DNA of 64,000 nt from Membranipora membranacea (Eukaryota > Bryozoa > Gymnolaemata > Cheilostomatida > Membraniporidae). This document shows positions 7,194 to 55,766 of this stretch, piece after piece (within the stretch, counting starts at the first letter, position 1; every line of letters begins with the position of its first letter). The notes under the pieces were generated by a model that ran no database searches, was not told the origin of the DNA, and saw nothing but the letters and a program-made list of their open reading frames with translations. Made by a program: the position numbers and the translations under genes. Location: positions 29,016,001 to 29,080,000 of the forward strand of contig OU612068.1 in the NCBI GenBank assembly GCA_914767715.1, in the 5' to 3' direction.

Positions 7194-7427
7194 GTAAGTG
7201 TTAAAGGTTCATGTAATATATAAAGAACCAGTTTGAAAGCTCAATCCTAAAATCATTGGTCCGTTTGTTACCAAGTTGTATCTGCTTCGATATTAAGATT
7301 GTATCATGACAACCATTTTGCAGAGGGTGGGGTTGTTGATTTAGGTGCAGTGAAGCAGAAAATGACAGCGACGACCCGCACTGTTGACAACTTTACTGCA
7401 CCAAGGATCCTAAATGTAAGGGATAGG

Positions 7428-7454
7428 CATAGACTTATGTATATTAAGTCTATG
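7428..7454. mobile_element. 27-bp palindrome with 8-bp target duplication
   Basis: CATAGACTTA and TAAGTCTATG pair around a 7-base centre. Perfect GGGATAGG flanks lie at 7420-7427 and 7455-7462. It shares terminal sequence with the palindrome at 18287-18310. Confidence 0.75.
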
Positions 7455-7769
7455 GGGATAGGTCATAACTCATAGGCCGTCACCATGAACATATCAAACA
7501 GTTTTGGTAGCTGAAAAATAGCTAGGGTGGATCTGTAGACCAAAATTCTACAGCTTGTAGAATATAAATCCACTGACCCTCAATGTATGTACAACAATGA
7601 TGATTAGCTATCTTTGACATGTCATTATTATGATCAGGAAATGGTTGCACAATGTTTTATTTATAACTTCAATAGTGATTAATAAGGTGAATAATTACCA
7701 AGAAGGTGTGTAAAGAATGTTGGCAGAAACTCTACTCCATTTGAAAGTAAAATGCTTCATAGCGAATCC

Positions 7770-8090
7770 GCCCCATTTTCCCAATGTCATTTTCCCACCG
7801 AGCCATTATCCCACCTGGTTGATTTCCCGCAGTGCCATTTTCCCACCTGGATGTTTTCCCACCAATCTAGTTTCCCACCTGGACGTTTTCCCACCAATCC
7901 ATTTTCCACCTAGATATTTTCTCAACAAGCCATTTCCCACCGGACCGTTTTCCCACCAAACAAGTTTCCCAACAGGACAATTTCCCACCAAACAAGTTTC
8001 CCAACAGGACAATTTCCCACCAAACAATTTTCCCAACAGGACAATTTACCACAGTGCTGTTTTCCCACCACAAAAATTTTTCTAAGGCTA
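7770..8090 (+). repeat. Left arm tandem repeat (TTTTCCCACC units)
   Basis: About 20 degenerate 15-17 bp units alternate tails of the type CCTGGACG, CCAATC and AACAGGACAA after TTTCCCACC. The apparent open frames on both strands here are repeat artefacts. Confidence 0.85.
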
Positions 8091-10020
8091 AGCCGTTCAC
8101 ATTGCACAAATACGTTTTCAATGTTCACATCCAGCCAACGCAGGAGAAAGTAGCTTTGGAAATGGAGATGTGACTTTATCAGTAGCAGGTTGCTTTTGAT
8201 ATGAGTTTTTTATTGCACAAGTTAGTCCAAGTGGTTGATTTCATCAAAATTGCCTCCTTGTTATAAACTACTTTTTGCGACAAAACAAATCAATGGTGCC
8301 TATGCCAATTCTCAAAAGAGCCCTTTGAGCCATTTGAGCCATTTAATCATCGCCCGAGCTGAAGAGATTATCATATTAACGGTTGTTGGCCATATCAATC
8401 TACAAAATTAAGCTTTCATCATATGTTTTCCGCCACATCGCTTTTGGTAAAGATTGTTTTACTGGTCTACAAGCTCAATCAACCACCAAACAATGTAAAA
8501 AAAATTCTCACTCTATGTATATTCACACACATGATCCTTTCCGAGATGAAAATGAATATTATTCAAGTTACAACAATTATTTGCTTTGATCAGGGACCCT
8601 TCCTGCTTTTACGAGGGAGGGCATCCCACCCTCCCTGCTTTTACCATAGCAACAGTTTGAAACATTAGAATTGTTTCCACTTGTAAAAAGAAGGGACAAC
8701 TTACTACCTGCAATACTAAATGCAATCGGTGATCACCAATAAGCGTGAAAAATTTAACATATTTGATTGCATTGAAGAATCTATGCTGAAAAATAAGGTT
8801 GGCCATTTAAAGCTGACAAGGCATAGTTGATACTAGGTTAATTATACTTGTAAACCAAAGACTGAGCTTTTGTAAGCATATCTATATGGCATGACAACAT
8901 GCTGTAACGCATACTATTTATTTGTTTCATGTTGAAGGTTTCTACTCAGTGAAATTTCTATTGAACACGGAAATATAATATAAAAATACGACTAACAAAG
9001 TTATGGATTGAGTAAAAACTTGAAAATGTATATCAAACAGTCAACCTGTGCCCCTTCTTTGCAAGTTCAAAGGGATCTAAGGCAAGTATAAATACCAAAA
9101 ATGTGATTATATTCAAAACACTTTAAAGACAATGTTAAGCCTTTCATGTTAACCCTCACCCCAGGACTTGGAGAGGTTTTAGTATTGTATATCGAAGCAG
9201 TCTGAAAACCAAAGCCGTCACCGCGTGACAAGGCTATTGTCGTTCAACTTGAGGTATTTTCTTTTTTATTTTTTTTTTAGGTTGACAAAGTTAAGAAATA
9301 CAAAGCTTAAAAATTAGGTAACTGAAAGAATTCCATTTGCAAAATCTTGTGATTATAGCACTGCTTTTTGCCTCCAGCTATTAAAAAATAGTAAAAGGAA
9401 ACCCCATCTTCAAACGGGGGACAAATTCTCCTGAAACAATTTCAGACCTGAATTACTATTTTATAATTTTTTTCTCTAATTGCATTTTCCACTAAAATAT
9501 TCAACCATAACATATTATAGAGGAAATTATTGACATGTGGTATAATTGACAGTGTCCTTAGGCTATAGGAATCATATTTACACAAGTGAGTTATATTTGT
9601 TGAAATTGTGAACTTAGACCAATATGGAAATAGGACTTCCCCTATCAATAAATATCAATTGAATTTATAGAAATTATGCTGGCTCCTCTATCACATTAGG
9701 AGATAATCAGGCAATCACTGTAACTGAACGTCATGCTGCAGTTGGAAAACATGTGAGTGATGTCAAACCATCCAGTTTTGGTATGGAGACTTAGTCATAA
9801 CAAATTAGAAGCGTCCCAAACTTGCCATGACATACTTAAGGTGAAACATTTTAGAGGGATAATTAATGCATGTTGTCTTCTTTTTGTACGAGAAAAAACA
9901 ATGCTGTGATCTAACAAGAATTGGCAAAAGAAAAATACATATTTGAGATCAAATTCTTGTTAAAAATACAAATCCGCATATCAGGTCATGCGCCCTAGAA
10001 TTTGATCATATCAATGCTTG
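8091..10020. other. Left-arm spacer of the foldback element, no gene seen
   Basis: AT-rich sequence without credible exons. Because the equivalent part of the right half is only about 310 bp, much of this stretch may be a later insertion into the foldback element. No termini were recognised. Confidence 0.4.
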
Positions 10021-10867
10021 TGTGCAGGGGATTGGAATGAACGACCGCTTGAATGAACGCCGACGGGACTGAAATTAGCTGGAATGAACGTAGACTGGTA
10101 TGAAAGTCGAAAATCCTGGAATGAAGGTAGAAAGTGATGGATTGAACGCCGACTACATTAGTATATAGAATCAACGCAAGAGCGACTCCTCAAAATAATT
10201 GTGTAATAAATTAATGATGATCATTCACAAAGGCACTCGCATCTGTTTATGATGATGCTTACTAAATTTCTGATGGCTAGATGGAATCAAGCAGGAATTT
10301 AGTGCAAAAACTGAAATGGTTATGAAATACTGAAAGAGAAACAGTGACCCTTTGTATATTTCATCAGAAAAACAATGGTCAAGCATTAAAGAAATCAGGT
10401 GCAACTAATGAATCGTAGCAGTTTACACCTTGGTCCACCAGTCGTCATTTATCGAAATATTTAACTCGTTTCACCAATGTGGTACAGTAATCACATCCGT
10501 TATGTCTGTGACAAGAACTTAAAGATGTGTTTTTATCTATCACCTATGTACAACTGCAATTCAATCGATGACATCATATCAACTGCTAGTTTTTTAGCCG
10601 ACTGTCAAGTCCCATCGTTGTCATCGATTTTTAATCGAGTTTTTAAAAACCTTTGTCTTAAAGACATAGTTTGAAGCTGCTATTTTGTATCACATTTTAT
10701 TCTCCATATTTTATTCTATCAGGTGAGTGATTTTCAGCTTTCGAATCCAAAAAGTTATGGCCTCTCAAACTTCTAGGGTGATCACCTTCAATTGGCATTG
10801 GGATTCAGCTGGGTCTTTCATACCAGCAGGCAACGTCGCTACCATAGCACCACTAGGTCCAGCTCTG

Positions 10868-10950
10868 TGGCTTGTAGACATTATAGCTCAGCGATAGCGT
10901 CGTTGCCTGTATGGCCATTTGGACCTGGGTTCGAGACCCTCTATTCCCTG
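10868..10950 (+). repeat. tRNA-derived SINE-like sequence in the foldback centre
   Basis: A perfect polymerase III B box, GGTTCGAGACC (near 10927), is preceded at tRNA-like spacing by an A-box-like TAGCTCAGCGATAG (near 10883). It is followed by a short repetitive tail containing ATCATC. It lies between the innermost pair of inverted arms. It does not fold convincingly as a functional tRNA by eye, so a SINE head is likelier than a tRNA gene. Confidence 0.5.
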
Positions 10951-11934
10951 AGCATTGTGATCATCATCCTATCTATTAGTATATCATAATAAGTATGACA
11001 CGTTGTGACGTCCCACACGGTGTGCCAGCTGATTCTCAATGCCAATAGACTGCCGTCACTTTGGAAGTTTGGGAGGCCATAACTTCCTCAATATTTGGAT
11101 TCTCAAGCTGGAAATTGCTCACATGATAGAATAGAATATGTCTTTAAAGTGTACATAACAGACTCTACACCCCTACTCACTTTAGGACGCTACCACAAAG
11201 GTAGAATAGAGCTACGGCGGGGAAGGTGGGAAACTTCCCGCCCTCCCCCACCGAACTTAGCTTGTCAAAACCGGCTACCGTTACCGGTAGGTACTAAACA
11301 TAATAAATAAATATAAATAGTACCTAATGCGCAGCACATGTGGTTTGGCATGGCAATATTGAATTACCGTAGCATAATCAAAAACTATAAATTTAAACCA
11401 AAACCTTGATTGTTCATAAGATGTATGCAGGTTTTTTACAACATAATATTTTCGGGGAGTTGCTCTCCTGTTGACTCTTTATACCAACTAATGCAGTCGG
11501 CGTTCAATCCAGCATTTTTGAAGTTCATTCCAGGATTTTCGACTTTCATACCAGACTACGTTCATTCCAGTTAGTTCAATCCTGTCGACGCTTGTTCCAA
11601 CCGATGTTCATTCAAAGGTGTGCATCTTCTGTTTCCAAACAAGCGCCCCCATAAATCTGACAACAGTTCCTTAGGTGAACACAGCTATGCGTTATTAAGG
11701 AATCGTACAAGAGCAAAGTTGTGATAAATCATGAGAAAACTGTTCAATTCGTTTTCATAACCTCTAACAGCATTTTTAACACCAAATGTCATAGACTTTG
11801 GGATTCTAGAATAAAAAAATAACAACAAAACTTTTATGACGAGACTCTAACACACACACTCAATTTTTTTGCCTGAAGAAGAGCAGAAGGAAAAGAAAAG
11901 AAATGTAAAGACGCACCATGTTCATTTGAAAAAA

Positions 11935-12188
11935 ATAATAGTGGGAAAATGGCAAGTGAGAAAATGTCCGGGTGGAAAAATGGATTGGTGGGAAATCGTC
12001 CAGGTGGAAAAATGGATTGGTGAGAAAGCGTCCAGGTGGGAAAATAGCTTGGTGAGAAAATGTCATGGTGGGAAAACAGATTGGTGGGAATATAGCTTGG
12101 TGGGAATATGGCTTATTGGGATAAAGGGAGGTGGGAAAATGCCTTGGTGGGAAAATGACATTGGGAAAATGTCCGGATACCCTTCATA
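11935..12188 (-). repeat. Right arm tandem repeat (GGTGGGAAAA units)
   Basis: Inverse counterpart of the 7770-8090 array, with units such as GGTGGGAAAATGGATTGG. It ends with the complement of the left terminus. Confidence 0.85.
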
Positions 12189-13181
12189 ACAGTACCTATC
12201 ACTAGTCTCTATTCTTTCCTGTGAGGGAAACCATCAAAAATAGAAATTGTTTGCTTCTTTGGCTATATTAGGTGCCAATTGGAACTTGTTGACTCAATAC
12301 TCATTCTAATCATAATAATAAATCATTTGGCGAAAAGGAAGAAGATGCTTGACGTTGCATTATCTATCTATTAATAGTCAACCAGATAAAATAATACAAA
12401 AAAGGGTTTTTCAGTCTGAGAAATTCTGTTCAGCTGTTCCGTTCCATTTCAGTCCACTAAGCAAATTACAGTTACCATATTTTTCCTACAACCAGGAAGA
12501 AAGAACGCAAAATTTTCTCAATATGTCATCTGATAGGCAAGATAAAAAGTGGGTGAGATAAATGGGGAGATGGGGAAATACTGCCCAATCTATGCAGAAA
12601 ATGATTAATTAAAAGGTAAGGCAAATCTTTAAGTTTGAGCAAGTTTGAATTTCCTATACAGACAGATAAAAACTGCTCAAATCAGTGAATTATCTCATAT
12701 TCATACTACATGTACTCATGTACGGCCCATACTGAGTTGAATCTCGAAGAATTAATTTATCAGCCCCAGTATAGTTAAGGACAGAAGGTGAAATTGTGGT
12801 TATAGAGAAATGTCTATGATGACATCTATTTGTATTATTATATCACTATATTTTGACGAGTTTTTGTTTTGAGTCATTGTGGCTAAGATACCTCGTGGTG
12901 TCTTACGAAAATATCCTTTATATTTTACTTTAGAGTGACCTTGATACTTACGAAATATACATTTATCTATGTCTGGCTCAATATTGTTTTAGACATGGTT
13001 ATAGTGCTGAAAGCAATAGTTACGACACAGCTTGTTGAAAAAAGCTAAGTGTTGAGATGAGCTAGTCAAAACATGAAGTCATTCACATGGAGAGAAGAGA
13101 AAGGAAGTGTTGTTAGATAATGGAACGCAGGTGGATAGAGCACCACAATCACTGAAACAAACTACAATCACAATCATAACC
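12189..13181. other. Spacer, no gene seen
   Basis: AT-rich sequence between the foldback element and the next gene. It presumably includes the promoter of the + strand gene that starts at 13182, but no core promoter motif can be assigned. Confidence 0.4.
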
Positions 13182-16491: not shown

Positions 16492-19400
16492 TCAGTCTAC
16501 AGTATTGATAGCCCCGTGTTCCACTGTAATAAATGGTTTATTTGTGCCATCCTGTAGATTTTCTATCAACTCCTTTGGCTCTAAATATGGCTGGAAACAA
16601 AATCGAGGATACATTGTAAATAAACTTTCACCCTCCCTGCTTTCACCAAAGCTTCTTTTACAGAGTAAACCAACAAGAGTCGTGCTCTCTTTTTGACTCA
16701 TGTAAATGATATTGTGTTCATTTTATTTTAGTCATGCTCTTGATTCGTGGATAAGGTGAGTTGATTCCAATCCATTATCATTAAGCAACAGTTTGGACAT
16801 CTACGAAAATTACCTACAAAAGTGGTAAGTATTAGTGGTAGAGGTACATGCTTTTTAGCAAAAATATGATTTGCAACAGCACATTTCATAACATTAAACA
16901 TTAAATTTCGACAAAAAGCTCAACAATGAGTTTATAGAGGAATTCGCTTACATTTGAAGCCATACACTCAACAATTCTTGGCCAGAGCGGTAATATTTTC
17001 TTGACATAGGATGAGCATTGGAACAATCCTTTTGATCAATGATAGAGAATAAATCAGATATCAAAAGTAGATGTCAAATGTAATTGTCACAAAGCCATCA
17101 TTTTAGGTTTCATGATTTTGTTGTAGTGTTCTATGATACATTTGAGTCATCAGGTAGCATACACTTATGTACAGACAGAGACCATTTATATTATCACAGA
17201 GTAAGGATATATCCTTACTCTGTGATATTATCATGTATCATATTGTATCATGTTTTGTGACCTGTGCTTTATGTTATGTTTCATGGTTGACCAGACATAA
17301 CTGGACATAACTAGTTTTTGTTGGCTGATTTTGACTGAGTTAGCTGAAGAGGAGAAGTTAGGCAGGACTTTTAATGTCAAGTTATAATACAATGAGAATA
17401 AAAGATAAGATAAAATACTCCATAAAGTGTTGAGTAATAATAGGAAGCCCGATAAATAACTACACATTTGTGACAGTAATTATAAACCAATTATGAATAC
17501 CTCAGTTGAGCCCATAGGGAATGTCCCCCAGTGTATACCAAAGCTAAGTTTAGATTTGAGATCACTATGTATCCTCAGTGCCTGCTCTGGATCGATGTGC
17601 TGCGGCGCCATGAAGTAACGAGGACAGTATGCTCCTGTAAGGGTATAAATAAACGGCAATATCAAGAGAAAACAATAATTGTGTGATGCTATTTTCAGGA
17701 AGTTTTTGATAATAAAACACAAACAATGATCAAGTAACTATGTAAATATCAGAGTAATGGGGTATAATACCTCAGGTATTACCTCTATTTATAACCCATA
17801 TACTAGTGTTTAACAAAATGTCATACACATTAGGCAAGGTAAGAGCAGATGATGATTAAAAACATTTATTGTAATATTACCAAGTAATCCAATTAATGAG
17901 CTATATAGCTTTGTGTTACAGCTGCCATATTTGATGATTAAAAACTCACAGACAAACCAGCTGCCAAAATGAATATCAGTGTGAATTAGTGTAGTAATGA
18001 TGAAGTAGTATTAGACATCATAGTATCAGTAGCACCATGACACAGGGGAGATATTCAACATACCGATAGCAATGGCAGCCAGATCAAAAGGTCCATAATG
18101 TTCTCCTATAGCCTCAAAAGCATCACAGTAACCCGTATCACCAGAGAACCAGATATTGTGTTTACTTGTCCTCATAATCCAGCTACTCCATAGAGACTGA
18201 ATAAAACAAGATAATGAAGATAAACTCAAGTAATACCATTCAGCTCAGTCAACACCGCCAGTAATAAAACAGCGCTCGGTAATACCCATAGACTTAATAT
18301 TAAGTCTATGGAAATACCACTGCAGTGTTGAGGGTGTATATATATTGTATGATTAATAAATATTAGTACGTCAGATATATTGGGAATGTTCCTCATAAAT
18401 CCTACACAGAGAATAAGGGGATTTCCCACATATGATATCTATGGTGGCAAATAGCTGAACGTTCTAACTGTGACAGTTTTTTTTGTGTGTTTCGGCAACA
18501 GTAGACCAGTCTATCAGTATGAAGGAGATTCTAATCAAAATTTTTTCAAAAGGTTCTTTTGTCACATTGGATATCATCATACTAAACATATCGGGTTACA
18601 CTTATGACACGACGTTCAGGTGCTAAGCAGTGACATTAAGCGTTGGAGGAGGACAGATAATTACTTTATTTCTGTCGCAACCATTCCTCAGGCTCCAATG
18701 TTGAGCTGGTGTACATATGATTTCTAGTGGTTTTCTCTCCTCAGATTTGTCTCCTCCCAGTTTTATATCTTCCCACCATGAGAGCTCTGTCACAGTCTCA
18801 CATCCACATGACGTAAACCAGCTCTTCAATCCTGAAGGGACACACCACCTGTACAAGTGCGTTGATCATTGATTATTATTGAACTGATGAATAAGTGGAT
18901 TGTAAAACAAATAGTTTATAATATTTTCAACAGCATAGCTCATATCCTGTGCCAACAACACAACATTAAACAACTAAATCATCAAAAACTGGATAGCAAT
19001 TACATGGTTTTACGTAGATATGTGAATTAGTCTTGATCCAGTCTTGACTCAAAGCTGTGCAGGTAGTCTATCGAAAAAAAATGACGCAGAGTGAAATACT
19101 AAACTATCGAACAATTGCGTGAGAGTTTATATGTTTTTATAGAAGGTATTTTAGAGTTTCTTTTTTTATCTGTGGGTTTTTATAGGTGGACCTTTTTTCT
19201 TATAGATGAGTGTAATTAATACAGTTGAGTATATTACAATAGTTGAGTACAGTAGGACTTACTGTAGTTTGTTACCGAATCGCTGATTGAGATCACGTAC
19301 TGACTGAAGATCGAGATGATCATAGTGATTATGACTGATGACGACCACATCTATTTCTGGTAGTTCAGATATAGCTAGTGGTGGTTCTCTGTATCTTTTC

Positions 19401-22525: not shown

Positions 22526-22778
22526 GGGGGGGGGGGGGTCTTTCAATTAGAAAAGAAACAGATCACAAATCACAATCTGATCACTCAGTGAGTGAGCAAT
22601 ACATACTAGACTCTTGTTTTCGAATTGCTCAGTCAATGATGGAACTATATCCATGCTGATTTGGGAGCAATTTTGTCTAATGGAAAGAGCACTCGAAAGT
22701 GAGTGATAATTTTGAGCGATGTGATAGTGATTACTTGCATTAGTAAAGCATCGCTCTTACTAATTGAATGACCCCCCA
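22526..22778. mobile_element. MITE copy 2
   Basis: Begins with a G-run then GTCTTTCAATTAG and ends CTAATTGAATGACCCCCC. The interior matches the copy at 4543-4807, including GAGTGATAATTTTGAGCGAT. The G-run may be expanded. It has no coding capacity. Confidence 0.8.
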
Positions 22779-30067: not shown

Positions 30068-30095
30068 CATAGAGTAAGGAGATCCTCACTCTGTG
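30068..30095. mobile_element. 28-bp decayed palindrome between METTL3 and hyccin
   Basis: CATAGAGTAAGGA pairs imperfectly with TCCTCACTCTGTG. Flanks AGGACAT and GAGACAT match at 5 of 7 positions. It is related to the palindromes at 17195 and 46994. Confidence 0.5.
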
Positions 30096-41057: not shown

Positions 41058-41234
41058 GTCTAGATCCTAGATTTTGATTTGTAGAGATCCCACTGGATTG
41101 CAGGCTTGAAACTGGTGTACATGGCCTAACAAATTATAGTTCAGTTATCTGGTAGTTTGTCAGGCTGTTGACAATGGTGCCCTACGAGCAATTGAATGCT
41201 ATTATAGCATGCCGGCAGACATGTGGTTTAGAGC

Positions 41235-42085: not shown

Positions 42086-42097
42086 TTTAGAGCATAA

Positions 42098-42275
42098 TGG
42101 TATTTCTCCCCTACCTATAGTAAATCATAGTTAGTATAGAGATGTTCCGTCCCTACCAACAGTAGATCAAAGTAAGTACTGAGGGATATCCCTCGCCTGA
42201 GTGAAGTTGATCATAGTAAGTATGGAGAGATTTTTCCTCCCTTTTATGCGGTACGTTATAGTGAGTAAAGATAAA
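42098..42275. repeat. Second site of the ~48-bp GTAGATCA-GTAAGTA array
   Basis: Units such as CAACAGTAGATCAAAGTAAG match the array at 38765-39075. The two arrays are about 3 kb apart with host exons and two hAT-like elements between them. Confidence 0.7.
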
Positions 42276-43254
42276 TATCCCATCTATTTATTGTTGCTTT
42301 GACAGTATTTTAATTGACCCTTAAGACTTGAGTGCTGTGCTGGTTGGACAGCATATGCTCTCTAGAAGACAGCAAGCCAGACACCAACCACCTAACCGGG
42401 ACAGCCTGCCAAGGGTCCTCCTGCAGAATAGTTGTGACCGCTCAAGGATATGAGCAGGGAAACATAATTTAATTCGCCTTGTTTTACCAAGGAAAGCTCC
42501 TCTATTTGACATCATCAGCAAAGGGGGACAAAGTGGATGTATACTTATACTTATCCATTCCCTTACTATGGTGTTAAAACAGGTTAAACCTTGCCAAAGA
42601 AGAACACCCCCCCCCCTCTAAGGCCCAAAACAGAGTTTGAGGAAATGCAGTACAGTCCTATGTACTAGCAAAGCTTCAAACAATGACTAGCTGCCTGAAC
42701 ACTATAACAGGCAGTTATTACTGCAAGTCATATCCCTTAGTTTTTTGAGATACCATCTACGCCTGTCTTGTCAGAAACTATTTGGAGTAAACAATAGACT
42801 AGATTTCTTATCTTATCATTCATTATTCAAAAAAGTATTTCATTTTCGCCAACAAGACAACAATAAACAAATAATAATAACATACTTGCCAACCTGTACG
42901 CATAAAGCGTTTATGAACGCTTATTTGACACAAATTGAGTTTCAAACGCAAAACGCTAGCAGTACGCATTTATGGTTTTTCAAACACCTGTTTACCTAAT
43001 CAGGCTATCAAAAACGCATCTTTGCTTCAGCTTACTTGCACAATCATGACATTGTTGATTGATAGTCTAAAACTATGGTGATGTCTTCAGAAAACCATTG
43101 TGTTGATTTGATGTGGACTTTTTACCTGTTCAAGTCTTACATCAGGGAATGGAATTCATTCTCCCTGCTTACATGAGTCAACTTTCATCTTTTCTTCAAT
43201 GAGAGTAACAAGGTTGCCCACCTCCTTGTGGTGAGATAACTCAGATATCCTACC

Positions 43255-43285
43255 CATAGAGTTATCCCCGGGGGATAACTCTATG
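43255..43285. mobile_element. 31-bp palindrome with perfect 8-bp duplication
   Basis: CATAGAGTTATCCCC and GGGGATAACTCTATG pair almost end to end. It is flanked by exact ATCCTACC at 43247-43254 and 43286-43293. Confidence 0.85.
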
Positions 43286-43525
43286 ATCCTACCCCAGTGT
43301 TTATTAGACGAGATTAATTAATAAAACACATTTTACAATCCATATGGATAAGAAGTAGAATTGGATAATAGGTCGGATGCTGTTCGTTTGTAAGAGGGTT
43401 TTCATAAAATGTGATGTAAAGAGTCTAGGGGAGGTCTGGGTGGAGAGCTTTATTTGGACATAAATTGCTGACTGTTTGCGAGCAGATGAGATTGGCTGGG
43501 GAAGAGCTATTTTAGACACTACTAC

Positions 43526-43579
43526 CAATGAACTAAACCTTCATTGTTATTACTAGTTGCTATAACTCTTAGTTCATTG
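43526..43579. mobile_element. 54-bp element with 11-bp inverted ends and 7-bp duplication
   Basis: Begins CAATGAACTAA and ends TTAGTTCATTG, with an unrelated non-palindromic centre. It is flanked by exact CTACTAC at 43519-43525 and 43580-43586. The termini equal those of the full palindrome at 44753-44784. Confidence 0.85.
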
Positions 43580-44220
43580 CTACTACGGCTTAAAATTTTG
43601 CCTTGATGATCATGATGACTATTCATTCAGGTTCAAAATTTAGTGTGTTGTTGTGCAACCCGCATTCAGATACTACTGAGTAGTGGTGACGTTCTGTGCC
43701 TAATAGTCCTTTTCGCATGCAGCGCAAAATTTTTTTCGAGGCAATTTCTGGTCATACAAGGCGCCCCAGGAGTTTTGTAAGCATTTTGCAAATTTTTGTA
43801 AATAAATGTAAGCATTTTGGAAAATTTAGGTTGGCAAGTCTGTAATAATGTTTATATGAACTATTTCAATAGCATTTATTTATTTCAACAATTGAATTTC
43901 AACATACCTTATAGGCTGTAGGACTTGGTTGATACCTATGTTTTGGAGACTTAAATTAGTAATGCTCAGTCTTAGTTATACCCTAGAAAATCAGATTCAG
44001 ATCAAGAAGTAGTGTTGCCAAACTTTGGTATTATCTCCTTGACATTCAAAGGTCCTTGACATTATCAGCATCAATTTTTTTCATTTTATGTACAGAATGA
44101 GAAAAATTGTAGTATCACCGCCCTTGGTATCACACCACAGCACATTACATTATCCGGTATACATACATTATAAGGCTGAAGAATAACCCAATTTCATAAT
44201 TAAAATTGTCTCAGTTCTAC

Positions 44221-44248
44221 CAAGGAGTAACAGCGAAGTTACTCCTTG
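44221..44248. mobile_element. 28-bp palindrome with 7-8 bp duplication
   Basis: CAAGGAGTAAC and GTTACTCCTTG pair around a 6-base centre. It is flanked by exact GTTCTAC (or GTTCTACC if the first C belongs to the target). Confidence 0.85.
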
Positions 44249-44745
44249 GTTCTACCAAAAATGGAACCACATCCATCTGCGTGCAAGTATCAGAATTTTA
44301 CCAATTGGAACTCACACCACACACACACGCACACCCTAGTAGGTAGAGTAGTCAGTAGCATGGGCAGGGAGGCTGTCTGGGACCCCAGACAGCTTGCCCA
44401 GGATACTACACAAACCCTGCACCATTCTCCCTGCCTGCACACTGTCACACTTCTAATATTAGAAGATGGATGATATACAAAACTAGAAAGTGCAGACAAC
44501 TACAAAATTCCTGCTAACTTCATTTAAATCCCTAATATGAATTTTATTATCTTGCATGTATACATTTTGCATGGTTTGAATTGTCATTGCAGTAAGCTTC
44601 AGCTGTGAAACCTGTTATGCAAAAAGTTAGTGGCTCACAAACTTTGAGGCAAAGAGTAAACAGGTTTTTACTATTATGTCGAACTGCATAGGCGTATGCT
44701 GACCGATTACCATAATTGGTCAACATAGCCTATGATGATAGGAGG

Positions 44746-45189
44746 GTAAAAGCAATGAACTAAACCTGGAGGTTTAGTTCATTGGTAAAAGCCACAGACA
44801 GCAGGTCACTGACAGTTGATTTGATGAGTTGCAGCCTTGTGTGTGTGTGGTTTGTGTTTGTTGTGGTGAAGATGGGAAGCTTGCATGAACCAAGTTATCG
44901 CGGCTGTGGAGCTTCTGTACCCACCAATTACGTTGCTCAGATGAGTCACTTCTAGCTCATTGGTCAGAATATTAACTTCTGACCAATGAGAGAGAAGTGA
45001 CTCATCTGAGCAACGTAATTGGCGGGTACAGAAGCTCCACAGCCGCGATAACTTGGTTCATGCAAGCTTCCCATCTTCATCACAACAAACACAAACCACA
45101 CACACACAAGGCTGCAACTCATCAAATCAACTGTCAGTGACCTGCTGTCTGTGGTAAAAGCAAGGAGTACTGTTACTCCTTGGTAAAAG
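44746..45189. mobile_element. Three palindromic elements in tandem separated by four GTAAAAG copies
   Basis: Order: GTAAAAG (44746-44752); 32-bp CAATGAACTAAACC palindrome (44753-44784); GTAAAAG (44785-44791); 362-bp near-perfect palindrome (44792-45153); GTAAAAG (45154-45160); 22-bp CAAGGAGTAC palindrome (45161-45182); GTAAAAG (45183-45189). Each palindrome is thus bounded by identical 7-mers, as expected if one target site and its duplicates were hit three times. Confidence 0.9.
44792..45153. mobile_element. 362-bp near-perfect foldback palindrome
   Basis: CCACAGACAGCAGGTCACTG on the left is matched by CAGTGACCTGCTGTCTGTGG on the right. Pairing continues with few mismatches to a centre near 44972 (TCAGAATATTAACTTCTGA). 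Very low divergence between the arms suggests recent origin or ongoing arm conversion. No coding capacity. Confidence 0.9.
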
Positions 45190-45504
45190 GAATTTGCTAT
45201 GCAGAAACTAATAAATTATGATGAATAAACAATGTGATGAGAATTGAGAAAACTTACAAAACCATAATTAATGATCCAATATTACAATTATTGTCAAAAA
45301 ACTAGTACCGTAAAAAATGAAATGAGAAAAATTAATTGTTCCAATTGCGATTTTAACCTGTACCCTTTTTGTCGTAACCCTCACGGTGCAACGACTTACC
45401 CACACAGCTATTAGGCCAAAATACAAATTTTCAAAAATTAACTGCAGTACTTTCCAGAAACTCTCCACAAGATAATGGCCAGGAGAGGGAAACTTTGTGA
45501 AATT

Positions 45505-47463
45505 AATTGCCATTTAAACAACTTGGTGGATCAATTTTATTCATATATCAAATTATTCAATGATTCTTCAGCTCCGTAATGATGTGCTTCTTTAGAACAT
45601 TGGTCCACTCTTAGTGCATTTTATATCTATCGCAGTAGAGGCCTTCCCGAAAACGCTCACATCAAGCCAGGCTAACGTTTTGTGACGTCAGAGAGCTGTT
45701 TGAGTGATCAGCCTATTGTAAAATCAAAACAAACAGAGCTATCTTGTATTCAATACAGCAGAAAATCCATGGTGCTGATTTTCATTTTCCACTATGAGGC
45801 TATGCACCCACATCTCAATTGCAACCTCATGGAAGGGCACTGGCATCCCCATCCCCAAATTTGAGATATGATGGTCTAAAAAGTCAGCTTATTTGTGTGA
45901 TTTGTGCAAATGTAGTTCAACACAGGGCACCAAACTAAGGCTATATTGTGTAGTAAGGTATTCTATGAGTGGCCCCCATTGAATACAATACTCCACTGAG
46001 ATCCACTGGCTAAGCAAACAAACTTGGAATTTTATATTAAAACAAGCACAGCGGTGTGTGTGTGTGTGTTCGATTGAGAATAAATGACACATACTATAAA
46101 CTGAGGTAAGACGCAGGTCAGATAATAAAATAATCCAGCGATAGCTGAGTCATCGGCTGCACGAAGTTAGTGAAAATAAGGCAAAGGGAAAGGAGATCAA
46201 GAATTTTTAGACTTTAGCATTCCAATATGTTATAGCTTTAGACTTTAGATAAAGCTTTAGACATTAACTGTGTTACTGTTCTCATTTTCTTCAAACTGAC
46301 CAGCTTTTAGTATGCCTTATGTATAATTATGTGAACTTGACTAAAAACTTTCGGTGAGGACCTGCTGTTTGCCATCCATTGTATATTTATAATTGGAGAT
46401 TTTTAATTGATAAAACTTTATCAGCAGACAAAAATTCTATGTGATGATAAAATTCTAAATAATGTGCTGGGTAGATGGCGAGCCGAGGTAAATCCGAAAA
46501 AATACTGTGCTGCGGCTAACTGTGACAAAGATTCTTGATTTTTTTAAAAAAATGGCCAGAACACAAAACATCAACCAAGACACAAATTTTTGCTGGTTAT
46601 GTTAATCAATCATTAATTATCAATTATTGTAATGTCCATTGAAATATTATTGTCATTCCGCTTGAGAAACAAGCCTACCTCTGCATGCATATCCTCCACG
46701 GTCAGTTCTTGTGAAGAAACATATTCCTTCACCATCAGTTGCCTACCCTATTCCCCTAGAATGGCCCCAGAAGCTTCATTTTCTGAATCAACAGATTCGT
46801 CACTTGGATAACATCAGTTATCTGACGAAACTATTGCCATCGAAATATTTTGCCCAAAACTTAAGATTGTAAATTTAATAACGTGTGTTGAATAATGTTA
46901 GACAAATTGATCGTCGCTAATAAACTAACTCTGGCTTTGTGAATTGGGGCTTGTATCATTCTATGGTCATGGATGTTTATACGATGTGCATATCACAGAG
47001 TAAGGATATATCCTTACTCTGTAAGCATATTTTGCAGTCATCGATGAAGTAATTTATTATGAGCCCGCAATAATGTTTGTTTTGACAGCAATGTGATATT
47101 TTATGTGGGGAGAGCCTTGTCAAAGATTATAAAACATTGGCCATGTAGACATAACCGCATCCACTAGGATACTGTGTGTAGTCAACAAAGATGTTGATGC
47201 GTGACCTATTGTTTTTGTTGTTGTTGAGAAATTTCTATCAACACAGCCCTCTAACAGCTCTGTGACGTCAAATATTACACCCTTTCCAGAGTTAATTTTA
47301 TGCGAGCGTTTTTAGGAAGGCCTCTACTGCGATAGATATATAATGCACTTAGAGTGGACCAATTTTTTAAAGAAGCATATCATTACGGAGGTGAAGAATC
47401 AGAGAATAATGTGATGCATAAGTAATATTGAGCCACCTAGTGGTTTAAAGGCAAATGCGTCAA
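45505..47463. mobile_element. About 1.95-kb TIR element with degraded THAP-like start
   Basis: The left sequence (about 45505-45740) and right sequence (about 47260-47463) are inverted relatives over about 200 bp, for example TCTATCGCAGTAGAGGCCTT at the left with its complement at the right. Inside, an ATG at 46475 is followed by codons that, after one frame change, read KYCAAANC. That is the opening typical of THAP zinc fingers found in P-element-like transposases. Stops and frameshifts follow at once, so nothing functional remains. A palindromic insertion lies at 46994-47022. Confidence 0.65.
46994..47022. mobile_element. 29-bp palindrome, CACAGAGTAAGG family
   Basis: CACAGAGTAAGGATATATCC then TTACTCTGT, nearly identical to 17195-17224. 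The flanks share GCATAT. It is inserted in the THAP-relic TIR element. Confidence 0.7.
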
Positions 47464-48288
47464 TCTAGTTAAGTTGAGCTCGTGTGGAATATCCTATCAT
47501 CTGAAGGCATTTTGAGAAGCCAGTTAGCATTATTGGCATATCAGGTTTTAACATTTTGAAATTAATACAACGACAAATTATACAATAAATTTGTCTGTTG
47601 ATGATATAGCGTAAATTGTAGAGCAGCTTTTTACAGCTATAGTTGTAGTGTGTTCGAGGCCCACTTTCAGCAAATGTTTTATTCATCTATTGTTTATAAT
47701 ATAATAATCATATAAACACTTTATTGCTATTTAGTGCCCCTTTTGGGGCCAATGAGAAGACGAATACATTAATTAATTAAGATCAACTCATCTAATTAGC
47801 GCACCCTAAAGGTTTGGGGGCACAGCTCATAACTTTCTCAATTATATGATTCCAAGAAGTTGCTCGCATTGAAATCAGGGAGGGTTGAAATGACAATGAA
47901 TCAAAGCATTCAAAATTACTCATGACATAAGTACATATCAATGATAAGAATGCTTTGAGCAGCGTGGCGCTACAAAGTGTGAGGCCAGGGAGTGAGGAAC
48001 TAGGGAGAATACAGCTGAGGCATATTCAAGGTTTCCGGTTTGTAAAGGGTGAAGATAGACTTTTGTACATTGAAATAAGACAGCCAAAGCTCTGATTTGG
48101 GAAGTAGTTATACCCAAGGGTGTTTGAGTATAACATCAAACAATCTATGTGAAAGAGACACAGACATGATTAATACATGCTGGCACAAGATGCATATGGG
48201 GTTTTCCCAATAACCAGCATGCCTACAAATGGCTATGCAAGTATGTCCCCCAGCTTCAATTAGGATATACTACTAGCATTTAATGATA

Positions 48289-48398
48289 CGGACCCCTGGG
48301 ACTTGCATGCCTTTACTTTGCCAATGTCCAGTATCAACCACCCCAAAAACTGATACTGGAAATTGGCAATGTAAAGGCATGTATGTCCCAGGGGTCCG
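48289..48398. repeat. 110-bp imperfect palindrome
   Basis: CGGACCCCTGGGACTTGCAT at the left and ATGTATGTCCCAGGGGTCCG at the right pair with a few mismatches, as do the inner blocks CTTTACTTTGCCAAT and ATTGGCAATGTAAAG. No target duplication was found. Confidence 0.8.
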
Positions 48399-48625
48399 TG
48401 TGATGGGCTCCTTTGGTTTGCAAGCATGTCGCTTCTATGACTGTTCCTAACCAAAAGTGCAATATTACCATGAGAAATCGCTAGAGAGACCCACATACCA
48501 GTGGACAGTGACCCTAGCATAGCACTAAGAGCTAACTAGCTGATATTTCAGTCTAGCCAATCAGGATTTTTAATCATACTAATGAAATACATGTAGCATG
48601 ACGTAACATTACATAGAGTTATTAT

Positions 48626-48688
48626 TAGCCTGACCCCCCAGACTTTCCCCCCCCCCCGTCCGACGCCCCCCCCCCCCCCCCCCCCCCG
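48626..48688 (+). mobile_element. C-rich 63-bp mini-element with 10-bp duplication
   Basis: Begins TAGCCTGACCCCCCAGACTT and ends in a long C-run. It is flanked by exact GAGTTATTAT at 48616-48625 and 48689-48698. Same family as 6050-6108. Confidence 0.8.
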
Positions 48689-48907
48689 GAGTTATTATAT
48701 GTAACTACTCTATGTTGCATTATGGCATATCCTTATTGCCCCAGACGACACGAGATAGACATCAGAGTTTTTACCTTACTCAATTTCTGTGAAATGACGA
48801 ATCGAGTTCTATTCCTGTCAAATGCTTCAGAGTAGTTGACTACAATCATTTATTTCTTTCCCTTATCGACTTCTGTACACGCAATAATTACTGATAATTG
48901 ATTAGAC

Positions 48908-48926
48908 CAAGGAGTCTTTAACTCCC
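48908..48926. mobile_element. 19-bp remnant, CAAGGAGT family, with 9-bp duplication
   Basis: CAAGGAGTCTTTAACTCCC sits between exact TGATTAGAC copies (48899-48907 and 48927-48935). It is the shortest member of the group. Confidence 0.75.
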
Positions 48927-49102
48927 TGATTAGACATCTTCTCTCAGATTATTTGTTGTGATTGGTAGGGGATGTCTTGTTGAGGCTATCATGGAAGAAA
49001 AATCATGTTGGCAGGTGACGAAATTATCGTTAGGCTGAGACAATTATAATACTTGTTGCTAAGAAAATATATGATGTCATGATTTTTTAGAATTACTCGA
49101 AG

Positions 49103-52100
49103 ATGATGAAATTCTTATCCTCTAGATTCCCCACCATTTATGGTGTATATAATCAGTTTAAAACAGGTCAGTCTACCCTTTAATTCAACCGCGCCTCAAT
49201 GTGACCTTGTACATTTGGTTTTATGCCGCTTAGTGTCAACCTTATTATAGTAAAATTTAATTGATATTTGCCACTCTGGCCATCTGCAATGCAGCGTTTT
49301 TTCAGCGCAATTTATATGTAGCACAAGTCTTTGTTGGTCATCATGATAAATTATTTACCTGGCTATAAAGTACCTCTGTAAAGACTCTAACATTGTACTT
49401 ATAGCGTTACCGTTCACTGCTTTACTCATACAGGTAGTGTACAGTTATACAGAGATGGTAAACTCACATACACACTTAAGCCAACGAAAGGACAAATATA
49501 TAAGCCACAAGAGATTATTACTCATTACGAGGTAAACATGATAATGATCATTTCAGAGATTTTACAAGGCTAGGGAAGGGAATTTTTTGAGCAAATTTTG
49601 TTAGTTTTATGCTCATTGAGCTGCTGCCTTTTCATTGAGTGCAGTATAATGCCATCGTGTATGTTCACATCTCTTTCAAAAATATTCTGCAGCTTAGCAG
49701 CTGATGGAAGCCTCCAGACAATGCATACCCTCACTTTTATGTCCACTATCAGGATCATCAAGACCTAATCGTTCTTATTGTTATAAGCCAACATTATATT
49801 TTACTTTACTCTTACGCAATAATATACTGAACTTCTCTCTTTGTTTTAGTTCCCTGCTGATCTGAAGCGCTGTTTACCAGCGTTTGTCATATTCTGGATT
49901 CCTTTTGTTGGATTCTGGCTATCTCTTCCATTAGCGTGAGTTCTACTAACTCTCTTATAACATAAGTGTGGGGTTTTTTTATATTTTTTGTCATATATAA
50001 CATAAGCTCGAGTTCTACTAACTCAAATATAACAGTATAAAGGATATCTCATTGATATAGGTCTGGATCACATATTTAATTCAAATTATTAGAGTTCAGT
50101 AATATTGATGTTCAACCAACATAGTTCTGGTCAGGCACTATTGCTACAACATCTTATGTTGTTATTAGCAAACATTATGTTACCCTTGAAAGACATACAC
50201 AGATATTCATCATAACCTAGGATTATCTTGTAGGGTCATATTTCCTGACAAAGTACTTAGTAGACAATTCTGGACTGACAAACAAAGAGTAACTTCACTA
50301 GATAAAGCTTTGGCAAAGCGCAGAAAATTATATCCGAATCTCACAAACAGTTTACTACAAGCGTTAGACAACAAGGAGATTGATCCTAAAATTTCACAAA
50401 TAAGTTGTGATATTATACAGCAGGTAAGATTTGGCAGGCAGTGGGAAGTTTTGATGTCATCAGACTATAAGCAAGCAGGGAAAGTAAACAATACAAAGTG
50501 GCATTGGTACTAGAAACTTGGACCATCTAACCGGGAATTCAAGTGGTTTTAAGTCGCTGGAGGCATTCGATTCCATTCCATTTTCATCTAAGTGCTCAGA
50601 CCGTCCTTCTGAGTGAGTGCTTAGACTATTGTCTCAATGAAGGGCTCTCACTATTTTTATCTTGTTTGAAGAGAGTGATAGGAAAGGACTACCACCTTAC
50701 TTTGATAGCCAGTAAATATGGGCCAAATCATCAACACAGTGCCTTAGACAGCCTAATGTAAAATCCCATGCCTGCCATGGAGTATTGTCCAAGTTTCATA
50801 CCTTTGTAGATGTAGCCTTATCACAGTGACCCTATTTTTGGTGAGCATGTTATTGACTAAATTTGATATTATAAGAAGTTGTTGGGACATGAGTATTTAT
50901 CTTCTCACTAACAGTGTGTATATATTATCTTCAGGTCACATCTGGAGAACCGTTAGAATTGGACCATTCAAATTTACTACGTAAAGCTTTCGCCTCCAAG
51001 CCAATGCAGAAACTCAACAGCGATCATTCAGTGAGTTGGCGCGAAGCCCACATGTTAAATTGGATAGTTAGCAATAATTTTGAGTTGTGTGCTCATACAA
51101 AAAGAGCGTACAACTACCATTATTTAATGCCCTGGTTATAAGCATTACCATATAAATAGTGTTTATATGTTTATGGTTATAAGTAAGGCTGCCTTTAATC
51201 TTGATAGGTTTTTTTCATAGATCTACTAATAATTAGTAGGTCTATGGTTTTTAGTAGGTCTATGGTTTTTTTCAACTGTTATTATGACTGTAAATTTTTA
51301 GTGAGATTACTCATGTTTTATGGTTCTAGATGGAGTTACGGATATGTATAGGAAGCTCTAAACTGAAGAAACATGCACTTTATCTCAATAATGTCGACCA
51401 AAGCTTGGCAAGATATCAACCAGAACTCCAGACTAGTCAGATACTGGACATGGTGAGATTAATATGATATAAATGAAGTGTTTAAATATACGTATATTCA
51501 TCTATGTATATATGTTTTGATAAATATCCTTACAAGACAACATTGGTGTGGTCTGCACTGTGCTACAAAATTACTGCCACAATATATTATAAGAGGTTAT
51601 AATTTTATAAACTGTTCATCTCTTATACACATATTTCACGCAGGCAAGTCAAATGATTAGCACAAGAAGTCAGATTATTGATCCTTAATGTCAGCAAACA
51701 GCTTAGAGTTTACAGATCATGTTAGACTGATAGAAAAAAATATGCATTGTGCAATGTCATGATTGTGGACACAATATACCAAGACTACCCATGTAATTTG
51801 AAATTCCAGATAATCCATCAGCGAGGGTTCCATTTAGGAGAAGCAAGTATTGAAGATAAGTTACAATTCATTCATAAATGGCTGTCACTCACGGATGACA
51901 TCAAAGGTTAGTAACAGCCCACTTCCTCTAAGTATGAGGTCACACATAAAAGGTCCTCTTAGAGGGAGGTCACACCCTCATTAATTACCCAATCATTCAT
52001 TATTGTGTCTAGTTAGTGTATAACCTGAGTTGATTGTTACATGGTGAGGCCTGCCCAGATTTGGTGTATTGCTTATCATTATGATCACATGTGAAGAAGT

Positions 52101-52384
52101 TATTCAAAATTGCATGTGAAGTGTCTCTACCAAGAGAAGTTGGCCTCATGTACACAATTTCCAATCGGAGGCTTTCAACACTTATGTGGGAGAAGACAGG
52201 CACCCTATCCAACTATCCTACTCGCTGTTTGTCTTGGAACCAATCAATGTATATTATTGTTACAATGTATTATACTCAGCTATTCATATTTTTAGCTCAG
52301 GAACTTGGATATCTCTTACATCTACCACTGCTCATGACAGACAATCAGAAGCTTTATACTCAACAAAAGAAGGCAGGAAACTAA
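49103..52384 (+). CDS. LETMD1: LETM1 domain-containing protein 1 (8 exons)
   Basis: A LETM1-domain protein of mitochondria in known animals. Exons (+): 49103-49166, 49434-49531, 49850-49935, 50234-50423, 50935-51030, 51330-51452, 51810-51906 and 52296-52384. All joins keep frame and give 280 residues (human LETMD1 about 360). The chosen start gives MMKFLSSRFPTIYGVYNQFK, aligning with the family's HFPRFYVLYTIF block and leaving a short basic N-terminus. A hydrophobic segment is at about 61-82 (LPAFVIFWIPFVGFWLSLPL), then VIFPDKVLSRQFWTDKQR, matching the family's LFPRQLLIRHFWTPKQQ. A helical LETM1 (ribosome-binding-like) domain follows to the end. AATAAA is at 52497. An extra N-terminal exon with a longer targeting peptide cannot be excluded. 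It converges with CSRNP. Confidence 0.9.
51216..51264. mobile_element. CATAGA-family palindrome in a LETMD1 intron
   Basis: CATAGATCTACTAATAATTAGTAGGTCTATG (as 51216-51246) plus a partial repeat ending in GGTCTATG at 51264. It is flanked by GTTTTTTT on both sides (51208-51215 and 51265-51272). The partial repeat looks like a local tandem duplication of one end. T-runs make the duplication less decisive than elsewhere. Confidence 0.6.
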
Positions 52385-53091
52385 GAAGGCAACTCTGCCA
52401 GCTGATCACTCAATACTATCATGTGTCCTATTAAATTTTATGTTCTATATTTTCTAGATAATAAGAGTTTTTTTACATCAGTATTAAATTGAAATCAATA
52501 AATTCTTTTTAATGTCCACATAGTATACTTGACATAAACATTGGTGTTGTAATTTAAAAAGAAAAAGATAATATAAGTTGCTATACAATAGCGCTGTCTG
52601 AGACAAAGCTAAAAAAAATCATGGGTTCTCTACTGGTACAAAAGTTACATTTATATGCAGAGACTTAAACAATGCAAAGAGTTCCTTCAGCAAGCACAAC
52701 ACATCACACAACAAGTAACAGCCTACATATATCAGCCATGTAAATCACACATGTAGGGATGTGGTACATGCAGAAATAAATTAAAAGCACACCATATAAG
52801 ATTGACCCAAGCCTATTGAGACCGGAATTGAAATACATCATCATCATCGTCAAGCATACAAAACAACTGAGACAGCACCAGGACGAGAGTTTGGTAAAGA
52901 GATTGCCACAACTAGAAATTCTGGTTAACTTAATATGACCTAAGATCACTTGCTGACTTGATACGGTTACAGCATATTACAGACTAGTGTAAATGCCTAT
53001 TAGCCCATCGCTAGGCATGCGGTGTTATTATAATCACACCAAATGACTTAAGTTAGACAATATTCCTATATTCTATATCTATATCTGTTCT

Positions 53092-55766
53092 CTATGAAGT
53101 AATTTCTGCTAATGCTGCGGAGGGTGGGGCAGCGACCGGGACAGTTAGACTTGAGGAGGAGGTTTGACAAGGCTCCACTTCTTCACTCTGTGTATGCATT
53201 GCTGTGTTATGACTAGTTGGAAACTGAAAAGAAATATCCGATGAGTTTTTAAGACTAGTAAAGGATAACGAAGACTCAACACAAACACTCTCATTATTCT
53301 CGATGTGGGAAGCAGTAGCAGCCGTGTCATGGACAGACACAATATTGCCTTCAGAAGAGTCATAACTCTCAGGACTAGACACAGAACATTCATTGTCATT
53401 CATAGGTAAAAGGTTATTAGATGTAAGCATAGATTCATGGGAGAGAGATTGCCACTCACAAACAGCATTATCGTTATATTCATCACGCTGCTGTTGCACG
53501 AAGTTTCCATCATTATTTGCATGATTGGCAGCGGCTGCCTGCAGAGAGGAGCCAGGCAGCTGAGATTGAGGGTGATTGTGGATATGAGATAGGGCATACA
53601 TATCAAGAGAATCCATAGTATTAAGTATGGGGTTAAGCAATCCTGAGATAGGCTCAAGGGCTGCGTGAGAGGAGCTGCAACCGCTAGTAACTATATGACT
53701 AGTTAGGTTACTATCACTATGATTGTGCACACTAGAAACTGAGGTGGGAAGTGTAAGGTGGTCACTAGAACTAAAAACAGAGCAAGTACCAAACAAATAA
53801 TCATCAGCTACAGTATCAAGCTTATCAGACAGACTAGGTGAGGAACAACCAACAGATAGTTGTGCATAGTCAGAACATTCACTAGCTGCTGCTGACGCTG
53901 TCTGTGGAGGGGCTGATAGACTGCAGTCTAAGCAGCATCCAGTCTCCGTACTGTTATACTCCTCCTCCTCCTCCACATCACCATCATCACAACTAAGCTC
54001 AGTACTATTCTCACCTTCCACTGCCTCACCACCGTCCTCGTCTGAGAACCGGATGTGCTTCCCTTTCTTCTTGAGTGTAGTGTAGTTTACTTCTTTGTTC
54101 TGTTTCCCACTAACTTTAGTCTCAGTCGGTGGGTTGCTGATCTCCTCCAAATACTCCCTCTCTAGTCTCCCCATAGTATGCTGGTAGTGTCTGCGTACCT
54201 TACCAGGATTGAACTCGATCCTACCGGCCGGGTTACCGCAGCCTTTTCTTGAGCAACCACAAGGGAATGAGAATCTATCCACCTGACACTGGATACCGTT
54301 GGTGGCACAGAGGCAGGTGTCAGGGTCACATACAGTCTTACAATCACAGCCGCATTCCTCTCGGTTCTCACGTAGAGCCTTACATTCCTCACGCTCGGTT
54401 GTATCGACTTTTTTAACACCTGAGAGTTTGAGTAGAGATCTTCTCTGTCTGATTGGAACTGGCTGTAGGAAGAAGCCATCCGTCTCTGTATCATCTTCCT
54501 CACTATCTGTCTCTACTATCTCTTCTTGACTTATATCATTAATAGCATCTATACTAAAACTATTCTCAGCTGATTCCTCTACGTCAGCCTTCTTACGTCT
54601 AACTATCTTCCTCATCTTACGGTAATGACTCAGTGGATATTGTTCTTTATGAGCATGCTTATCACTCATTCCTGAAACGAAAATCAAACATACATCTCTT
54701 TAAAGAAATATACTTTTTTGCTGCAGCCTGAACTTCCAGATTCTATCGGACGGTAGCATCATTTGCTATTGGCCCAATTTCTATAAATGTTATAGCATTG
54801 GACAAACCTAATTTCTGGTTATCGCTTATTGTTGGGATGGTGTCACTGTTATATCTGAGAGGTGGAGACTAAACTTATGGCCTAGCGACAAATAAAAGTT
54901 TTCACTTAAAGGGGACACGCTTTGAAGTGGAACTTACACAAACACACGAACCAGTTAGTAAACATACCAATGAGTGCTGGTACACTTCTTACCTAAAGTT
55001 GTGCCTCCTTGGCTGGGAACACACGCAAATCCCTGAGCTCTTGGAAAATAGAAGACATCTACATTCTCAAAATTTACTGATTTTCTGATTTTTTTCCGCG
55101 ATGGCTGGCCAGACCCACAGTTCACTGAAAATACAAAAGCAATATTTTAATCATGAAATTGGTAAGAATATGAGCTTGCCCTTCCCACTTTCCAATAAAA
55201 CTTCATATCACACAAGGCTATGAATTCACTGAGATGTCTCAGTAAGAATCCACCGTTTTTGATGATTATTCTCCTCCATGCATGACAGAGATAATTTTAG
55301 GATAATTCACTAAGCGTACCAATATCATTGAGCTAGAAGATTGCCAAGTTTTACAAACTCACTAACAAAACAAAGCACAAGAATGTTCCAAGCCCCCACA
55401 TACCACATTTTCCACTTTCAAGGCACACTTTTCTCAATTTCCTCACCTGTGCATTCAACTACTCGATGGGTTTGAACTAGAAACATATGCAAGCTAAGGG
55501 GAGTAAACTTGGAGTATCATGGCCTCTTAGTGGTATCAAGGAGTTAGCTCTGACTCCTTGGTGGTATAATCCAGGAGAATCCTTGAATTTTTCATAAAAC
55601 ATTTTTAATGAGTGAACCTCAAAATCTTCAGATGCATTCAGGGAGGCAACTCACCACTGTTAGCACTTTGATTGCTATCATCTGTAGACTCAGAGCCTTC
55701 TGTATTGTGACCATATGATTCCTCGCTTTCTTCGCGATCTACTGCATCTATCTTTCTCTTAGGCAT
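53092..55766 (-). CDS. CSRNP: Cysteine/serine-rich nuclear protein (CSRNP/AXUD1 family, 3 exons)
   Basis: Nuclear regulators related to Drosophila Axud1. Vertebrate members bind DNA and activate transcription. Exons (-): 55655-55766, 54993-55124 and 53092-54671, in frame, 607 residues. The N-terminus is [19 protein letters not shown]. Exon 2 codes for [17 protein letters not shown] and [10 protein letters not shown], the family's VYYFTRRQGF / VPSQGGSTLG block. Then comes an acidic stretch and [22 protein letters not shown]. The cysteine-rich core is at about 186-226 ([35 protein letters not shown]), followed by [18 protein letters not shown]. The C-terminal 300 residues are Ser/Thr/Asn-rich and acidic, as in the family. 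The single large last exon is typical. Which vertebrate CSRNP is closest cannot be told here. Confidence 0.96.
55537..55560. mobile_element. 24-bp palindrome in CSRNP intron 1 with 7-bp duplication
   Basis: CAAGGAGT and ACTCCTTG ends around a short centre, flanked by exact GTGGTAT (55530-55536 and 55561-55567). CAAGGAGT family. Confidence 0.85.

Follow-up and report, generated by a model that had tools for sequence, protein, structure and literature searches.

Short palindromes between flanking duplications in a bryozoan genome as probable excision footprints of P-superfamily transposons

A 64,000-nucleotide stretch of the genome of the bryozoan Membranipora membranacea (contig OU612068.1, positions 29,016,001 to 29,080,000; hereafter the window, taken at its full length) contains a set of very short palindromes, most of which lie between exact direct repeats of 7 or 8 bp. 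Which process placed them there is the question that this locus raises. We propose, with a probability of roughly 0.8, that these palindromes are the excision footprints of several P-superfamily (THAP9-like) cut-and-paste transposon families. They would be a known kind of scar, probably in a new host and at an unusually high density.

An earlier note, made from the sequence alone, had reported 13 palindromes, and all 13 are present in the window at the positions given there. Addition of the palindrome at 43143-43167 brings the total of short CA...TG-ended palindromes to 14. These candidate scars are listed below in window coordinates, together with end type, flanking duplication and the scans that retrieved them; no strand is assigned to any of them.

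7428 to 7454, no strand: scar of CATAGA type, 27 bp; 8-bp duplication GGGATAGG; exact and end-blind scans; readable as 10 + 17 nt
17195 to 17224, no strand: scar of CACAGAG type, 30-bp perfect palindrome; 7-bp duplication ATATTAT; exact and end-blind scans
18287 to 18310, no strand: scar of CATAGA type, 24-bp perfect palindrome; 8-bp duplication GTAATACC/GAAATACC (7/8); looser scans A and B
30068 to 30095, no strand: degenerate scar of CACAGAG type, 28 bp; flanks AGGACAT/GAGACAT (5/7); likeness to 17195 and 46994
43143 to 43167, no strand: scar of CAGGGA type, 25 bp, absent from the earlier note; 7-bp duplication CTTACAT; end-blind scan
43255 to 43285, no strand: scar of CATAGA type, 31 bp; 8-bp duplication ATCCTACC; exact and end-blind scans
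43526 to 43579, no strand: scar of CAATGAACTAA type, 54 bp (15 nt + 28 nt filler + 11 nt); 7-bp duplication CTACTAC; exact and end-blind scans
44221 to 44248, no strand: scar of CAAGGAGT type, 28 bp; 7-bp duplication GTTCTAC; exact, end-blind and looser B scans
44753 to 44784, no strand: scar of CAATGAACTAA type, 32 bp; 7-bp duplication GTAAAAG; exact and end-blind scans; readable as 15 + 17 nt
45161 to 45182, no strand: scar of CAAGGAGT type, 22 bp; 7-bp duplication GTAAAAG; exact and end-blind scans
46994 to 47023, no strand: scar of CACAGAG type, 30 bp, last base mutated; flanks TGCATAT/AGCATAT (6/7); centre same as in 17195
48908 to 48928, no strand: scar of CAAGGAGT type, 21 bp, one end base mutated; 7-bp duplication ATTAGAC; looser scans A and B
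51216 to 51264, no strand: scar of CATAGA type, 31 bp plus an 18-bp tandem duplication (49 bp); 8-bp duplication GTTTTTTT; looser A and end-blind scans
55537 to 55560, no strand: scar of CAAGGAGT type, 24 bp; 7-bp duplication GTGGTAT; exact, end-blind and looser B scans

The pairing of palindrome and duplication exceeds chance. An exact scan (arm 8, span 16-120, exact 6-10 bp duplication) retrieved eight loci in the window vs three matches summed over 30 order-2 Markov windows. A scan blind to the terminal bases (arm 6, span up to 60, exact 7-8 bp duplication, low complexity removed) retrieved ten loci, all of them starting with CA and ending with TG, vs a total of 15 matches over 100 simulated windows, none of which was CA-ended. 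Looser scans were noisier, with 19 rows (11 CA-ended) for scan A, whose three simulated windows each gave 6, and 10 rows (8 CA-ended) vs 37 rows (3 CA-ended) over 20 simulated windows for scan B. Loci 30068 and 46994 were retrieved by no duplication scan and were assigned by their CACAGAG-type resemblance to 17195; in the case of 46994, the mutated end base accounts for this absence.

Across the 14 loci, 27 of 28 ends conform to the CA/TG rule. The single exception is the mutated last base of 46994, which ends with TA, and the CA...TG ends first described are both kept at 12 of the original 13 loci. Both duplications are retained around inverted end remnants, as in P footprints, exactly at 11 loci and in degenerate form at 18287 (7/8), 46994 (6/7) and 30068 (5/7). 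Of the 7-9 bp repeats originally claimed, those of 7 or 8 bp stand, whereas the 9-bp TGATTAGAC at 48908 consists of the 7-bp ATTAGAC plus two bases of the mutated end (ACTCCCTG). The proposed resemblance of the repeats to the target-site duplications of DNA transposases, and that of CA...TG to transposon ends, holds. Duplication length tracks end type: it is 8 bp for the CATAGA type (7428, 18287, 43255 and 51216) and 7 bp for all ten others, i.e., the CACAGAG (17195, 30068 and 46994), CAAGGAGT (44221, 45161, 48908 and 55537), CAATGAACTAA (43526 and 44753) and CAGGGA (43143) types.

How could such an arrangement arise? An element would insert, duplicating 7 or 8 bp of target, and its transposase would later excise it by a long stagger, with one strand severed at the boundary of the element and its partner about 17 nt farther in. 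Approximately 17 nt of terminal repeat would then remain as single-stranded tails flanking the donor break. Because element ends are inverted repeats, joining of the tails by trimming, microhomology or filler synthesis would yield a short palindrome between intact duplications. Structure, duplications, sizes, end types and target motif are read directly from the window; the parent elements, their transposase and its 17-nt stagger in this bryozoan are inferred. The precedent is Drosophila P, whose transposase staggers its cuts in this way by 17 nt (PMC7776569; this and the other PMC sources are cited from partial text). In junctions recovered from Rad51-deficient flies (Chan et al. 2010), the two copies of the duplication enclose remnants of the left and right ends, each of at most 17 nt, which meet at a microhomology or at filler (PMC2895639). 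Among fly products that retain both ends, a perfect palindrome of 30 bp flanked by intact 8-bp duplications was recovered most often, with 14 isolates (PMC2895639).

The palindromes described here share with fly P footprints the intact duplications, the remnants of both inverted ends (here putatively of at most 17 nt each), the central microhomology or templated filler and the 30-bp perfect palindromes (PMC2895639). They differ in that the fly junctions were induced in a Rad51-deficient background from one element, whereas those in the window are natural, of several end types, flanked mostly by 7-bp duplications and from another phylum. Their ends start with CA, as do those of P (CATGATG) and zebrafish Pdre2 (CATACC). 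Lengths are 21, 22, 24, 24, 25, 27, 28, 28, 30, 30, 31, 32, 49 and 54 bp, so that 12 of the 14 fall within 21-32 bp, all below the 34-bp ceiling set by two 17-nt tails, and the remaining two are explained by filler (54 bp) or by a tandem copy added to 31 bp (49 bp). Of 63 fly isolates tabulated, 39 retain at least 7 nt of both ends, with a median of 30 bp (data from PMC2895639), vs a median of 28 bp at the 13 loci first reported (Mann-Whitney p = 0.07). The anatomy is the same as that of the fly junctions, the scars here being perhaps slightly shorter.

Arms of the same type run into common sequence and stop at differing points. CAAGGAGTAACAG is both the left arm of 44221 and the right arm of 45161, CAATGAACTAAACCT is common to 43526 and both arms of 44753, and CATAGACTTAATAT is common to 18287 and the right arm of 7428. 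Reading 7428 as 10 + 17 nt and 44753 as 15 + 17 nt would give tails that reach but do not exceed 17 nt. The 28-nt filler of 43526 contains TCATTG and TTGCTA, both of which recur at the right junction of the same locus. Apart from one identical pair, centres differ among loci of one end type, which bears on the suggestion of the earlier note that these are mobile elements of minimal size, or hairpin oligomers that were captured, with an integrase or a transposase moving them. Each locus does have its own ends and duplication, and one 30-bp sequence is present at two sites, 17195 and 46994. Copies of a tiny mobile element should, however, share one interior; since all other centres differ within their end type, as expected of repair junctions but not of copies, this suggestion is not supported. 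The arms of the sole identical pair end in self-pairing ATAT, and a repeated junction is therefore plausible. Fly P ends, moreover, require about 138 and 216 bp for mobility (cited in PMC1562414), and we consider mobility or capture of such short sequences highly improbable. Self-comparison of the 300-bp flanks of the 13 loci first reported revealed no empty-site copy, the matches being palindromes, fold-back arms and one overlap.

The duplications carry information on the target. The nine distinct 7-bp duplications match GTANTAC, the consensus of the P-superfamily element Galileo, at 30 of 54 positions, vs 14.6 expected and a score reached in none of 200,000 random draws; this motif ranks first among the 64 palindromic consensuses tested. 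The test was not fully blind, because a GT..TAC tendency and its likeness to the Galileo consensus had been noticed beforehand. Position 6 is A in all nine and position 2 is T in seven. Galileo generates 7-bp, rarely 8-bp, duplications at GTANTAC (PMC4168063), and in Drosophila the duplications of P and the hAT element hobo are of 8 bp and those of 1360 of 7 bp (PMC3276498). A palindromic GT...AC target with duplications of 7 or 8 bp, as expected of the P superfamily, is what the window displays, and the partition by end type, with CATAGA loci at 8 bp and all others at 7 bp, matches P vs 1360/Galileo. Galileo and 1360 are nonetheless resident elements, and the comparison with them covered duplications and target. 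The CATAGA type further resembles zebrafish Pdre2/THAP9 in its CATA start and 8-bp duplications, but the 13-bp repeats of Pdre2 have a different interior.

The same evidence bears on the hAT-like transposition suggested in the earlier note for these loci. The CA-type ends, the 8-bp duplications at four loci and the hobo target GTNCGNAC, which likewise starts with GT and ends with AC (PMC3276498), are compatible with hAT elements or their footprints, and Ac/Ds excision also leaves short palindromes (PMC5873905). Those palindromes, however, centre on the base adjoining the element and are made of flanking DNA (PMC5873905), whereas here the palindrome is end sequence common to loci with different flanks, and the duplications are whole. 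In addition, 7 bp is the duplication length at 10 of 14 loci, and position 7 is never A in the four 8-bp duplications; the core of the hobo target as earlier described, NTNNNNAN (PMC3276498), is thus absent. A hAT origin is not supported and appears scarcely credible.

Equivalent scars could also stem from some other superfamily, described or not, whose transposase cuts far inside the element ends (e.g., a Mutator-like one). No transposase was recognised in the window, and, to our knowledge, the cut chemistry of many superfamilies with 7-9 bp duplications is unstudied. Duplications of the Mutator-like Muta1 are 8-9 bp long, and its excision occasionally leaves behind as much as 13 bp of element end, but about 90% of Muta1 excisions are precise when duplications are present (PMC5225508). 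Ten of the 14 loci carry 7-bp duplications, and P, 1360 and Galileo are indicated both by the target motif and by the co-occurrence of 7- and 8-bp duplications. We therefore regard this alternative as rather improbable.

Several observations weigh against P-superfamily footprints. The reference fly junctions come from Rad51-deficient animals; wild-type flies initially favour homologous gap repair, and simple scars are therefore just one outcome, while wild-type products from the 14-kb element of that study mostly reflect incomplete repair synthesis (PMC2895639). Zebrafish THAP9 produced larger flanking deletions upon excision in fly cells. Within the end type CAAGGAGT, scars 48908 and 55537 match the other two over only about 8 nt and agree less well with the proposed reading. 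ATANTAT is a close second to GTANTAC, the GTTNAAC of 1360 ranks only 7th of 64, and the wider flank motif of Galileo is not evident in the sites examined. No full-length parent element was found within the window, nor any transposase domain in 31 frames scanned against Pfam, i.e., one long open reading frame (ORF) described below and 30 drawn from the 69 stop-free frames of at least 85 amino acids. Among P-type proteins, neither the 119 matches to the fly protein nor the 66 matches to a 16-sequence profile (7,990 candidates scored) included a named bryozoan, most being without an organism name.

Searches for precedents returned little. The exact pattern CACAGAGTAAGGA...TCCTTACTCTGTG had no matches in prokaryote and virus contig collections, and CAATGAACTAAA...TTTAGTTCATTG had none in the virus contig collection, this type of host lying outside these collections. 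No report of natural P-type scars in a bryozoan was apparent from titles and abstract starts among the matches listed in the open-access literature, where we did not find a description of scars at the density and diversity seen here either.

The window also contains two longer elements with similar ends.

44793 to 45153, no strand: resident fold-back element, 361 bp, ends CACAGACAGC; 178-nt arms, 98% identical; 8-bp duplication GTAAAAGC
48612 to 48714, no strand: possible resident element, 103 bp, CATAGAG ends around long C runs; flanks TAACATTA/TTGCATTA (6/8) by comparison by eye

The second, which was returned by no duplication scan, is maybe a resident relative of the CATAGA scars. Their presence could be taken as a sign that the palindromes are ordinary miniature inverted-repeat transposable elements (MITEs) that lost their interior by random deletion rather than by transposase cutting. 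Random deletion should, however, give a spread of sizes, and a scan to 8 kb (at most one mismatch in 12 end bases and one in the duplication) returned only seven scars of up to 54 bp, together with the 361-bp fold-back itself and one offset reading within it; the probability of such an origin seems close to negligible. When larger CA...TG-ended elements were sought up to 8 kb, the fold-back was the only convincing one among many chance-level rows, and a scan to 6 kb returned chiefly background and a tandem array at 34.4 kb.

The candidate P-type scars are clustered. Eight of the 14 lie in 43-49 kb (43143-49000), six of them together with the fold-back within about 2 kb; the simulated chance of at least eight in any 6 kb is 0.00075, for a window size picked after seeing the data. 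GTAAAAG occurs four times within 44746-45189, its copies being separated by the CAATGAACTAA scar, the 361-bp fold-back and the CAAGGAGT scar. The last C of the right GTAAAAGC copy of the fold-back is also the first base of the CAAGGAGT end of scar 45161, which makes insertion of the fold-back at the margin of that element or of its scar probable. Use of a single 7-mer on three occasions is consistent with high target fidelity; among natural fly P insertions, 178 of 1,226 coincide exactly with artificial ones (PMC3276498). Scar density in the window is one per 4.6 kb. With bryozoan genome sizes of 235-956 Mb (PMC13326412, partial text), this would extrapolate to roughly 50,000-200,000 scars per genome, although the window may be a hot spot. 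An element of about 1.9 kb at 45507-47454, with terminal inverted repeats of about 159 bp that are 86% identical, encloses scar 46994.

A bolder version of the P-superfamily interpretation would posit one or more transposase lineages outside the described P elements that cut about 15-17 nt inside their ends, with scars outnumbering resident elements, one 7-bp site entered three times and a natural archive of break repair extending genome-wide. We deem this combination unlikely.

Elsewhere in the window, about 4.4 kb at 7774-12171 lie between inverted arrays of a 16-bp TTTCCCACC-type repeat whose first 16 bases match, a fold-back-like arrangement for which no clear flanking duplication was found. 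A tandem array with a 22-bp unit at 34371-34810 is open in two minus-strand frames, and a 44-bp tandem repeat forms two clusters, at 38730-39079 and 42100-42274, about 3 kb apart. The single long non-repetitive ORF, at 53092-54687 on the minus strand, matches the cysteine/serine-rich nuclear protein (CSRNP) family, with 99, 71, 66, 49 and 52% identity to its five best homologues and 51% to that of the cheilostome bryozoan Watersipora subatra. Pfam matches above cut-off point to hyccin and sulfatase exons, and a LETM1-like match falls below it.

If the palindromes are P-type excision footprints, what might pass for tiny MITEs with a reader or in a repeat annotation would become readable scars, each documenting an insertion, an excision, a departed family and the mode in which the break was joined. 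Counts per end type could then rank P-type activity even where no parents survive, and scar centres would reveal the use of microhomology and filler in wild germlines. The 17-nt stagger described for Drosophila P would, in that case, hold in another phylum too and for families whose duplications measure 7 bp.

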